A DNA stretch of 64,000 nt from Haloplanus salinus (GTDB lineage Archaea > Halobacteriota > Halobacteria > Halobacteriales > Haloferacaceae). Every line of letters begins with the position of its first letter. Positions within the stretch are counted from its first letter, which is position 1. Where the stretch lies: NCBI RefSeq assembly GCF_003336245.1, contig NZ_QPHM01000001.1, forward strand, positions 1,488,001-1,552,000, written 5' to 3'. The position numbers and the translations under genes are program-made. The notes under the pieces are model-generated. The model made no database searches, was not told the origin of the DNA, and was given only the letters and a program-made list of their open reading frames with translations. Below, piece by piece: positions 44,987-48,708 of the stretch.

Positions 44987-45307
44987 TCACCGCATCAAAA
45001 GCGGGAGGGAGAGGGCAACGAGTACCGCGGCCCCCACGAGCGCGGCGTACAGCAGCCCCTCGATCCGTTGTTCGGGCGACAGCTCAGCCCGCAGCTCCGG
45101 GCGGGCGGTGTAGACGAGCCGGTGATACGCCACGGCGACGGCGGCGAGACAGGCGACGGTCGGTAGCCCGAACACCGCCGGTCCCGACAGGCCGATGGTA
45201 ATGGCGTAGATGGGACCGAACGAAAAGCAGACGAGGCCGGCCATCGCCGTCACGACGAGGAAGGGTACTGCGTCGACGGCCGTCCCGTCCCGGTTCCGGA
45301 GGCGCAT
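44987..45307 (-). CDS. Small three-segment membrane protein (106 aa)
   Basis: Start MRLRNRDGTAVDAVPFLVV at 45307. Three hydrophobic stretches (about residues 14-36, 41-58, 82-103) separated by a loop containing YHRLVYTARPELRAELSPE. This fits a haloarchaeal integral membrane protein of unknown role. It is upstream of and on the same strand as the SRPBCC gene, 15 nt apart. Confidence 0.65.
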   Translation of the reverse strand: MRLRNRDGTAVDAVPFLVVTAMAGLVCFSFGPIYAITIGLSGPAVFGLPTVACLAAVAVAYHRLVYTARPELRAELSPEQRIEGLLYAALVGAAVLVALSLPLLMR

Positions 45308-45385
45308 ACCGAACCATGCGGCTCGACGGGCAAAACTCGCGCGCCGATCCGAAGGTTCAGGGTCCTCGCCCGACTCCCCACGCCT

Positions 45386-46096
45386 ATGCCCACGGTTCGC
45401 GCCGAGGTGGTCGGCGAGGGGACGCGGGACCTCGCCCTCGACGCCGACGCCACCTACGGCGACGTGCTCGCCGCCCTCGATTTTAGCCCCCACGAGGCGA
45501 CGGTCCTCGTCGACGGGGTGCCCGTCCCCGAGGACCGCCCGGTCGACGCCGACGCGGTGCGTGTCCTCCGACTCGTGAAGGGGGGTGCGGTCGACGGGTG
45601 GGCGGTCCAGGTCCGCGTCGCCGGCCCCAACGACCACCTCGACGTGATGCGGATTCTCGACGGCGCGATGCTCGCCGTCGACGCCGACGCGGTGCGCGGA
45701 CGAATCGGCGACGGCGAGGTGCTGGTGGCGACTCGACGTCGCGACGACGGCGACGCCGTCGGTCCCCCCGTCGGCGCCCTCGTCCGCGACGGCGACCGGG
45801 TACGGGCGGTGGCGACCAAGCGCCGCCACCGAAACCGGGGGGTTGGAAGCGCGTTGATCGCCGCGGCCCTGGAGGCGCGTGGCCGCCTCGTCGCCGCGTT
45901 CGATCCCGACGTGTGCCCGTTCTACGAGTCGCTGGGGTTCGATATCGAGGCGGCCGGGGACGGCGACGAACGCCTTCGCGGGACGTTAGCCGGGGAGCCG
46001 CCGCGAGACGGCGACGCCCACCTCGTCCGCCCAGTAGAGCAGGGCGACGGTAAACAGGAAGACGGCAGTCGAGAGGTCCCAGGCGAGACCGGTTAG
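45386..46096 (+). CDS. SAMP2-like ubiquitin-fold domain fused to GNAT acetyltransferase
   Basis: Residues 1-66 closely resemble small archaeal modifier protein 2: EVVGEGTRDLALD, FSPHEATVLVDGVPVPEDRPV and RVLRLVKGG, where free SAMP2 would end. Here translation continues without a stop through AVDGWAVQVRV into a GNAT domain with HRNRGVGSALIAAALE (acetyl-CoA loop) and CPFYESLGFD. The end overlaps the convergent gene by 111 nt and is Gln/Glu-rich; removing one G near 45980-45982 would end it naturally at LRGR with a TAG at 45987-45989. The fusion itself is not explained by a single homopolymer change. Confidence 0.75.
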   Translation: MPTVRAEVVGEGTRDLALDADATYGDVLAALDFSPHEATVLVDGVPVPEDRPVDADAVRVLRLVKGGAVDGWAVQVRVAGPNDHLDVMRILDGAMLAVDADAVRGRIGDGEVLVATRRRDDGDAVGPPVGALVRDGDRVRAVATKRRHRNRGVGSALIAAALEARGRLVAAFDPDVCPFYESLGFDIEAAGDGDERLRGTLAGEPPRDGDAHLVRPVEQGDGKQEDGSREVPGETG

Positions 46097-46687
46097 CGTC
46101 GAGCCGAACAGCGCGGTGGCGCCGAGCAGGGGAAAGAGGATGGAGAACGTACAGCCGACACAGGAGACGAGGCCGAGAACGCCCGAGAGCACCGCCCGCG
46201 TCGCGTCGAGCAGGCGGGCGTAGACGAGGTAGGTCATGGCGATGTAGCCCAGCACTTTGAACGGAATGATCGAGAGGCGGACCCGCGGCGTGCCGTAGAC
46301 GACGATCGGACCCAACCCGGGAACGTTCCAGTGAATCGAGGCCACCGCACCACCGTTGAGCGGGTCGGTGATCCCGAGTTGGAGGGTGCCGGCCGCGACG
46401 AACAGGACCAGCAGATAGCCGACAGCCACGGCGGTCGCCACGGCCCACTGCCGACGGCCGACACTCGGCGTCTTCGTCCGAACCATCGCCCAGACGCCGA
46501 CGTTGATCCAGAGGAACGGATACACGACGTAGCGCGGTTCGACGACTGTCACAGTCGGGGTGACGGCGAGGTACGCAGTGACGAGGGCGAGTTCGGCGGC
46601 GAGGACGAGGCTCCACCACCGGATGGCGGCCGTCTCCGCGAGGAGGAGGCGACGAACCCGCGCGAGCGGCCCGTAGGCTTCGCTCAC
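45986..46687 (-). CDS. Polytopic membrane protein with conserved CVGC (233 aa)
   Basis: GTG start (VSEAYGPLARVRRLLL) at 46687, chosen because an ATG 32 nt upstream in another frame soon stops. Six or so hydrophobic segments; the fifth contains LVSCVGCTFSILFPLLGA, a Cys pair inside the membrane suited to metal or redox chemistry. The PLNGGAVASIHWNVPGLGP loop is conserved-looking. No family I can name with certainty (a haloarchaeal DUF). Confidence 0.65.
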   Translation of the reverse strand: MSEAYGPLARVRRLLLAETAAIRWWSLVLAAELALVTAYLAVTPTVTVVEPRYVVYPFLWINVGVWAMVRTKTPSVGRRQWAVATAVAVGYLLVLFVAAGTLQLGITDPLNGGAVASIHWNVPGLGPIVVYGTPRVRLSIIPFKVLGYIAMTYLVYARLLDATRAVLSGVLGLVSCVGCTFSILFPLLGATALFGSTLTGLAWDLSTAVFLFTVALLYWADEVGVAVSRRLPG

Positions 46688-46812
46688 GCCCGCACCCCCC
46701 ACCGGCCGACGGTCACGGTCATACGCCTCGTTCGGTCGCGGAGGACTATGGAAATGTCGACTTCGACGCATCCTCCGGTCGCGGACGGCGACGCCGAGTC
46801 CGCGGACCCCCG

Positions 46813-48180
46813 TTAGACCACCCCGGCGACCAGCGCCCGCCCCTTGTCGAGCAGCTCGTCGACGCGCTCGCGGCTCCCGGCCTCGGCGTACACGCGCATC
46901 TTCGGCTCGGTGCCGCTGGGTCTGACGAGGAGCCACGAGCCATCGGTCAGGAGGAGTTTGAACCCGTCGAGCGTGACGACGTCCTCGACCGCTTCGCCGG
47001 CCACGCGGTCGGGGATGGCGTCGCCGAGGGCGTCGATCACGCCCGCCTTACGCTCGTCCGGACAGTCCACGCTCACCTTGTCGGCGACGATGTCGCCGTG
47101 TTCGTCGAGGAGGCGGTCCACGCGGTCGTCGAGCGGTTCGGCCGCCGCGGCGTCGGCCGCGAGCGCCGCCATCAACACGCCGTCCTTCTCGGGGACGTGC
47201 CCGCGGATGGAGAAGCCGCCGGACTCCTCGCCGCCCATCAGCGCGTCCGCGTCGATCATCGCCTCCGCGACCCACTTGAACCCGACCGCCGTCTCGATCA
47301 CGTCTTCGCCGTGAGTGGCCGCGATCCGGTCGATCAGGAACGTGGTCGAGACGGTTCGCACTGCGGGTCCGGAGCCGTCGTCGAGCAGTTCGTCGTAGAC
47401 GGCGGCGAAAAACAGGTTCTCGTCGAGGAAGCCCCGCTCCGGCGTGACGATGGCGAGGCGGTCGGCGTCGCCGTCGTTCGCGACCCCCAGGTCGGCGTCG
47501 TGGCGCCCCACGGCGTCGACGAGCCCCGCGAGATGCTCGGCGCTCGGCTCCGGGGGCGTGTCGCCGAACGATGTGTCGTGGTCACAGCGCCGCCGGATCA
47601 CCGTCGCCCCCGCGGTTTCGAGGAGGGCGTCGGTGACCCCGCGCCCGCTCCCGTGCATGGCGTCGTAGACGACGGTCAAGCCCTCGCAGTCGGGGGCGAC
47701 GAGGGACCGGACCTGCTCCGCGTGGGGGGTCACGACGTCGACGCGTTCGACGGAGCCGCGGGGGCCGTCCGCACGCGGTTCGGCGAGTCGCGACTCGATG
47801 TCGTCGGTCACCTCGGGGAGCGCCGGCGCGCCGTTCCCCGGGATGAACTTCACGCCGTTGTACTCGGGCGGGTTGTGGGAGGCGGTGATCATCAGCGCCC
47901 CCGAAAGGCCGCGGTCGACGACGGCCCACGCGATTAGCGGCGTCGGGCAGTCCCGCTCCGGCAGGAGGACGTCGAAGCCGTTGGCCGCCAACACGTCCGC
48001 GAGCGACTCCGCGAACCCCTCGGAGGTGGCTCGCGCGTCGTAGCCGACGGCGACCGGAGCCTCGTGACCGGCGTCGGCGAGGTGGTCCGCGACGGCCTGT
48101 CCGACCATCCGCACCCGCTCGTCGGTGAAGGCGTCGAGACGGGCGCGCCACCCGTCGGTGCCGAAGGAGATGGCGTCCAT
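46813..48180 (-). CDS. glmM: Phosphohexomutase (phosphoglucosamine/phosphoglucomutase family)
   Basis: A 455-residue alpha-D-phosphohexomutase. Sugar-phosphate loop SFGTDGWRA, catalytic Ser in MITASHNPPEYNGVK, metal loop ANDGDADRLAI, sugar loop GGEESGGFSI and phosphate-binding VRPSGTEPKMRVY are all present. The start at 48180 (MDAISFGTDG) follows the family. Substrate (glucosamine, mannose or glucose) is not decided by sequence; the GEESGG loop fits GlmM or PGM. Confidence 0.88.
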   Translation of the reverse strand: MDAISFGTDGWRARLDAFTDERVRMVGQAVADHLADAGHEAPVAVGYDARATSEGFAESLADVLAANGFDVLLPERDCPTPLIAWAVVDRGLSGALMITASHNPPEYNGVKFIPGNGAPALPEVTDDIESRLAEPRADGPRGSVERVDVVTPHAEQVRSLVAPDCEGLTVVYDAMHGSGRGVTDALLETAGATVIRRRCDHDTSFGDTPPEPSAEHLAGLVDAVGRHDADLGVANDGDADRLAIVTPERGFLDENLFFAAVYDELLDDGSGPAVRTVSTTFLIDRIAATHGEDVIETAVGFKWVAEAMIDADALMGGEESGGFSIRGHVPEKDGVLMAALAADAAAAEPLDDRVDRLLDEHGDIVADKVSVDCPDERKAGVIDALGDAIPDRVAGEAVEDVVTLDGFKLLLTDGSWLLVRPSGTEPKMRVYAEAGSRERVDELLDKGRALVAGVV

Positions 48181-48308: not shown

Positions 48309-48470
48309 ATGTCACTCGTAGACAGTCTGAAACGGGTGTTCACCGCCGGCGAACGCATCGTCTATCGGTGCGACGCGTGTGGGGCGACGTTCCGTACCGA
48401 CCCGGACACCGACGAGCCGACGTGCTCGAAATGCGACTCGGCCGAGGTGCGGCAGATCAACCGCGTGTAG
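48309..48470 (+). CDS. Small zinc-ribbon protein (53 aa, FmdB-like)
   Basis: MSLVDSLKRVFTAGERIVY then CDACG and CSKCDS pairs (about residues 21-42). The single-ribbon layout matches many haloarchaeal regulator-like mini-proteins. The end overlaps the convergent nuclease gene by 14 nt. Role unknown. Confidence 0.65.
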   Translation: MSLVDSLKRVFTAGERIVYRCDACGATFRTDPDTDEPTCSKCDSAEVRQINRV

Positions 48471-48708
48471 CGCCGTCGACCAGCCGTTCTTTCTGTCGCC
48501 GCGCGAGCGACTTGATCGCGTGTTCGCGGCTCATCGCCGCCGACCGGGTGTCGTACTCCTCGACGTGGACGAGTTCGACCGGCGTCCGGCCGCGGGTGTA
48601 TTTCGCCCCCTCGCCGGCGTCGTGTTCGGCTACGCGCCGCTCCACGTCCGTCGTGTAGCCAGTGTAGTAGGTGCCGTCCGCACATTCGAGGACGTAGACG
48701 TAGTGCAC
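48457..48708 (-). CDS. GIY-YIG nuclease-family protein
   Basis: An 83-residue UPF0213-type single-domain nuclease: YVYVLECADGTYYTGYTTD is the GIY-YIG core (Tyr pairs), with the conserved Arg in DVERRVAEH and Glu in REHAIKSLARRQKERL. Such proteins likely act on DNA, but their role is undefined. It is complete. Confidence 0.85.
   Translation of the reverse strand: MHYVYVLECADGTYYTGYTTDVERRVAEHDAGEGAKYTRGRTPVELVHVEEYDTRSAAMSREHAIKSLARRQKERLVDGATRG

Follow-up and report, generated by a model that had tools for sequence, protein, structure and literature searches.

The window, a 64,000-nucleotide stretch of the Haloplanus salinus genome, contains an open reading frame in which a SAMP2-type modifier is joined to an acetyltransferase of the GNAT family (Table 1). 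The frame runs from the ATG at 45386 through SAMP2, the Gly-Gly and the GNAT domain to the stop codon at 46094-46096 without any intervening stop. The SAMP2 part matches Pfam PF21965 at 87.6 bits (cut-off 27, residues 4-64) and NCBIfam NF041919 at 98.4 bits (cut-off 70, residues 4-67), and the GNAT part of the same protein matches PF13508 at 33.1 bits (cut-off 27, residues 112-186). The original prediction of an in-frame fusion lacking a stop at the Lys-Gly-Gly is thereby confirmed. Nearest to the SAMP2 part are the SAMP2 structures 2l32 and 4hrs of Haloferax volcanii, with a phmmer E-value of about 1e-20. Two details had to be corrected. The SAMP2 part has 67 residues and not 66, with Lys-Gly-Gly (codons AAG GGG GGT) at residues 65-67, and the predicted end of the feature at 45990 is out of frame, as the reading frame extends to 46096. 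Since 169 codons follow the Gly-Gly, it is not the C-terminus of the translated protein, and the segment is classed as a SAMP2 domain or precursor and not as free SAMP2.

Upstream of the ATG, a GAA(G/C)(G/C)TTCAGG element is found at the same place, from about -36 to -25, in 12 of 12 Haloplanus loci. Judged from the sequence, it may act as the promoter of a leaderless transcript starting at the SAMP2 ATG. No match to Rfam was obtained for the region 45000-46400. The last ~35 residues of the protein look like a run-on after stop-codon loss, since relatives stop near codon 192-206. This part overlaps the 3' end of a convergent membrane-protein gene (45986-46936, minus strand). A similar run-on is present in locus L006, and a shorter one in L012, whereas stops in the remaining nine species fall within the range given above.

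Table 1. Features of the SAMP2-GNAT locus in the window, and the loci of SAMP2-redoxin fusions in other genomes.
Feature	Position	Strand	Evidence
Whole SAMP2-GNAT fusion reading frame, 236 aa	45386..46096	+	open frame; both domain profiles matched
SAMP2 beta-grasp domain, residues 1-67	45386..45586	+	PF21965 and NF041919 above curated cut-offs; phmmer
Internal Lys-Gly-Gly; cleavage predicted after Gly67 (45586/45587)	45578..45586	+	invariant in 12/12 Haloplanus; AF2 junction pLDDT < 50
Variable linker, Gly-Gly to first GNAT strand	45587..45607	+	length and sequence differ across 12 species; pN/pS
GNAT acetyltransferase domain, residues 73-201	45602..45988	+	PF13508, PF00583; AF2 and Foldseek
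Acetyl-CoA binding motif R-x-x-G-x-G (R149, G152, G154)	45830..45847	+	conservation
Probable extension by stop loss (about 35 codons), overlapping 3' end of convergent gene	45989..46096	+	comparison with relatives
Upstream element CGAAGGTTCAGG, -36 to -25 from ATG; putative BRE/TATA	45350..45361	+	conserved in 12 loci
SAMP2-redoxin fusion loci	L077, L078, L090-L092, L145, L147, L149, L150, L154, L157, L196, L197, L204, L209, L220		

The second domain is a GNAT by profile, by fold and by its R-x-x-G-x-G acetyl-CoA motif, and not a MoaE as in the Ubl-MoaE fusions. The AF2 model of this domain alone, built with 51 sequences, reached a pLDDT of 91, and Foldseek placed YjaB, PA2271 and Ard1 as its best matches (E 5e-8). 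R149, G152 and G154 are invariant in all 12 Haloplanus proteins, and both glycines in the 51 GNAT sequences as well. For the substrate, sequence and fold searches returned only generic GNATs (YjaB, PA2271, Ard1, NatC). The model of the whole fusion, with a moderate mean pLDDT of 67, contains two domains. Residues 64-69, which span the junction, fall below a pLDDT of 50; the Lys-Gly-Gly is thus predicted to be flexible and to lie between two separate domains.

The in-frame fusion is not restricted to this strain. It is found in 12 of 12 Haloplanus genomes, in one copy each and with a protein identity of 64-80%. K65, G66 and G67 are invariant in all of them, while the residues that follow vary in kind and number. 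The DNA of the junction also differs among species, as in AAGGGGGGTGCG, AAAGGCGGCGCC and AAGGGAGGGGCG. Simple uncorrected substitution counts over the 12 species gave a pN/pS of 0.38 for SAMP2, 0.43 for the GNAT and 0.71 for linker residues 68-84. Both domains are under purifying selection, the linker less so. The conservation of the Gly-Gly could in part stem from structural constraint.

Searches of the Haloplanus salinus genome with the SAMP2 domain and PF21965 yielded no other SAMP2 above the cut-off, and when the whole fusion was used as query against the genus, no genome gave a second match, except for a 38-residue fragment in G002. The next match in Haloplanus salinus, below the cut-off at C1:622178, was rejected as a second SAMP2, being a MoaD-like reading frame without a terminal Gly-Gly. 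This frame (L002:1435-1704) ends in APMRE and adjoins an aldehyde-oxidoreductase-like gene. Within the genus, no stop after the Lys-Gly-Gly and no separate intact SAMP2 was found; the original prediction had named the former, and the latter together with an absence of cleavage, as evidence against it. In the comparison of relatives that it had proposed, most other genera of haloarchaea have samp2 next to the GNAT gene but not fused to it, and none of the 12 Haloplanus genomes has a stop after the Lys-Gly-Gly. In several loci of the relatives, the two genes are separated by a redoxin gene.

The C-terminus of SAMP2 is variable elsewhere in the family. In 59 other genomes (loci L063-L122), hand-picked from the matches and thus no estimate of frequency, SAMP2 ends exactly at the Gly-Gly in 25, carries a tail of 2-21 residues in 29 and is fused to an AhpC/TSA-type redoxin in five. 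In this hand-picked sample, SAMP2 frequently extends beyond the Gly-Gly. The short tails show many different sequences after Lys-Gly-Gly, beginning most often with Ser or Ala. Fusions of SAMP2 to the redoxin (AhpC/TSA-type, SelL-related) are found in three genera of the Haloplanus family (g12, g15 and g21) as well as in Halorussus, and the Gly-Gly is kept in all. L215 (G269) was rejected as a further case, its SAMP2 C-terminus being scrambled in a frameshift-like manner in a genome that is 72% complete. A second SAMP2-GNAT fusion (L219:255-836) was identified in a genome of another family (G159, 78% complete), with Ala-Gly-Gly and almost no linker. Both lineages with a SAMP2-GNAT fusion have a small GIY-YIG-like reading frame close to it (48457-48708 of the window and L219:803-1090, both on the minus strand).

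In every case checked, the partner belongs to a gene type that relatives carry immediately behind samp2, which makes the loss of a stop codon the likely route of fusion. For the GNAT, where L219 forms a long branch, every bootstrap tree requires two changes to account for the two fused lineages. In the redoxin tree, where the Halorussus fusions contribute eight distinct sequences, supported branches force three changes of state, and the AU test rejects the grouping of all fused redoxins in one clade (p = 6.8e-8). There were thus at least five changes between the fused and unfused states, two for the GNAT and three for the redoxin. Repeated gain is the simplest reading of these five changes, with room for a few losses. 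What was originally predicted as a single odd gene is a trait of the whole genus, and one case of recurrent SAMP2 tails and fusions.

Among 60 extended proteins, the residue after the Gly-Gly is Ser in 24 and Ala in 19, where about 2.7 and 6.1 would be expected from composition, counts which are no statistical test because the sequences are related. As Ser codons lie one base away from each stop codon, the excess of Ser may reflect an origin from a stop rather than the preference of a protease. The excess of Ala is not explained by such a descent.

The machinery for processing and activation was searched for in the genomes. Haloplanus salinus encodes one clear UbaA-type E1, with the PDCATT active-site region and the zinc cysteines, and two JAB/JAMM proteins with the HxHx7SxxD motif; its JAMM1 gene is located at C1:1000276-1000704. 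A JAMM1-like protein with this motif is present in all 11 Haloplanus genomes that are over 90% complete; in G005 (L233) and G009 (L234) it is represented only by a divergent form, with 47-49% identity and the motif intact. The Haloplanus protein is related by sequence to the JAMM1 structures 5ld9 and 5lda, the latter being a complex that contains a SAMP2 chain. JAB proteins are also encoded in 11 of 11 other genomes that carry fusions. The presence of JAMM1 carries little weight, given how common the protein is. An NcsA-type protein (TIGR00269) was found in 12 of 12 Haloplanus genomes. The other modifiers of Haloplanus salinus comprise a SAMP1-like protein ending in VSGGRQ (C1:1901085-1901348, L058), a SAMP3-like protein ending in VAGGT (C1:1088838-1089101, L059) and a MoaD-like protein ending in RGG; the first two thus also carry residues beyond the Gly-Gly.

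The fusion is probably a precursor of SAMP2 that a JAMM of the HvJAMM1 type cuts after Gly67, and the need for cleavage, as originally predicted, is supported as far as sequence can test it. An ancestor of Haloplanus would have lost the samp2 stop codon, joining the gene in frame to its old operon neighbor. The JAMM metalloprotease would cut the flexible Lys-Gly-Gly junction after the second glycine. The freed Gly-Gly could then be adenylated by UbaA and used in the thiolation of the tRNA wobble uridine, together with NcsA, and in protein conjugation; the same cut would release a free GNAT, so that modifier and second enzyme would be made in a 1:1 ratio. We infer the cleavage, JAMM as its agent and the retention of the thiolation and conjugation roles of SAMP2. 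Cutting probably takes place after translation, because the recurrent fusions of related archaea keep the Gly-Gly. Such a cut has a precedent in an engineered SAMP1-MoaE fusion, which HvJAMM1 cleaves in vivo exactly after the Gly-Gly, with function restored only then (PMC4443979). A further precedent is CsJAMM, which cuts the SAMP precursors of Caldiarchaeum (PMC6043591).

The fusion could also stay uncut and act as a bifunctional acetyltransferase of which SAMP2 is a lasting part, guiding it, for instance, to SAMP2-binding partners; SAMP2 would then no longer serve as modifier or sulfur carrier in Haloplanus. Free SAMP2 is not strictly required, since H. volcanii tolerates its loss at normal, though not at high, temperature (PMC4048286), and a Ubl-Cgi121 fusion is conserved in Thaumarchaea, as reported by Makarova and Koonin (PMC2948915). 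This explanation is nevertheless unlikely. Although the Lys-Gly-Gly sits in a flexible segment next to a fast-changing linker, it shows no variation among the 12 species, and at least four further fused lineages have kept the Gly-Gly. Retention of NcsA throughout the genus and of UbaA in Haloplanus salinus also argues against it. To our knowledge, ubiquitin-like domains in permanent fusions generally lose the Gly-Gly, which counts against an uncut fusion as well.

Somewhat less likely still is cleavage by another protease, or a partial or regulated cleavage that leaves a GNAT-bearing pool of SAMP2 with a role of its own. MoaX of Mycobacterium tuberculosis provides a parallel, as it is cut at the Gly-Gly by an unidentified protease while a part stays full-length (PMC4326299). 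HvJAMM1 is, however, the characterized haloarchaeal enzyme for the Gly-Gly bond (PMC4443979), and a relative of it is encoded in every Haloplanus genome that is more than 90% complete. The G tract at the Haloplanus salinus junction (AAGGGGGGTG) might suggest that free SAMP2 arises by programmed frameshifting or that translation initiates internally, but this is very improbable, the tract not being conserved in the genus (see AAAGGCGGCGCC). In none of the 12 species does another frame contain a stop directly behind the Gly-Gly, and six of them lack an in-frame start codon between the Gly-Gly and the first GNAT helix; frameshifting and internal starts are thus rejected as a general route. A sequencing or assembly error joining two genes can be dismissed, since 12 independent genomes carry the fusion, with junctions that differ in sequence, in agreement with the earlier argument, correct by inspection, that no one-base insertion or deletion in the G tract creates a Lys-Gly-Gly followed by a stop.

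Returning to a precursor cut by JAMM, the consequences for the system would be considerable. SAMPs have mostly been studied in H. volcanii, whose SAMP2 ends at the Gly-Gly and needs no maturation. In Haloplanus salinus, the only SAMP2 found could not be activated unless cut, so that a single protease would govern conjugation to proteins as well as tRNA thiolation. On balance, we lean toward the wider view that haloarchaeal SAMP2 is commonly a precursor, with tails or operon genes (GNAT, AhpC/TSA-type redoxin) repeatedly fused after the Gly-Gly, and that neither tRNA thiolation nor sampylation can occur until SAMP2 has been matured by a JAMM, perhaps one preferring Ser or Ala after this site. 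As the fusions arose repeatedly, the processing of precursors would seem to be an ancient and general capacity of the archaeal system, and the origin of ubiquitin precursors would therefore be directly testable in culturable organisms.

A literature search of incomplete coverage found no paper describing a natural SAMP2-GNAT or SAMP2-redoxin fusion. The neighborhood of the two genes in Halobacteria is on record as a genomic association of arCOG00535 with arCOG04721 (Makarova and Koonin 2010, PMC2948915), and fusion to a GNAT or redoxin is not reported in the accessible part of that article. Natural Ubl-enzyme fusions of the MoaD-MoaE type that are cut by JAMM are already known; judged against the literature searched, natural SAMP2-GNAT and SAMP2-redoxin fusions that are fixed in genera appear to be new.

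Among the closest known arrangements are those of MoaX (MoaD-MoaE, M. tuberculosis) and of DR2607/DR0402 from Deinococcus radiodurans, in which an N-terminal ubiquitin-like sulfur carrier with an internal Gly-Gly is followed by an enzyme domain. These proteins are cut after the Gly-Gly, in D. radiodurans by a JAMM (PMC4326299, PMC8832034), and for MoaX the cut is required (PMC4326299). The Haloplanus fusion shares with them the N-terminal Ubl, the internal Gly-Gly, an intact second domain and a JAMM gene with its motif in the genome. In contrast, its carrier is of the SAMP2 type, and the haloarchaeal partner is a GNAT or redoxin without known role in the pathway, where MoaX and DR2607/DR0402 carry MoaE, the reaction partner of the carrier itself. 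The engineered SAMP1-MoaE of H. volcanii likewise places a SAMP before an enzyme (PMC4443979); it is an artificial construct with SAMP1, whereas the Haloplanus fusion is natural, is built on SAMP2 and has become fixed in a genus.

Residues beyond the Gly-Gly are also a feature of the eukaryotic ubiquitin-ribosomal protein fusions and of the Caldiarchaeum CsUb/SAMP precursors, and some modifier precursors of this kind are trimmed by JAMM-type enzymes. The CsUb precursor of Caldiarchaeum has a tail of 9 residues (PMC6043591), and the partners of eukaryotic ubiquitin are ribosomal proteins. If SAMP2 is commonly a precursor, its fusions would represent an archaeal parallel to those of ubiquitin with ribosomal proteins, and JAMM would be a maturation enzyme besides a desampylase.
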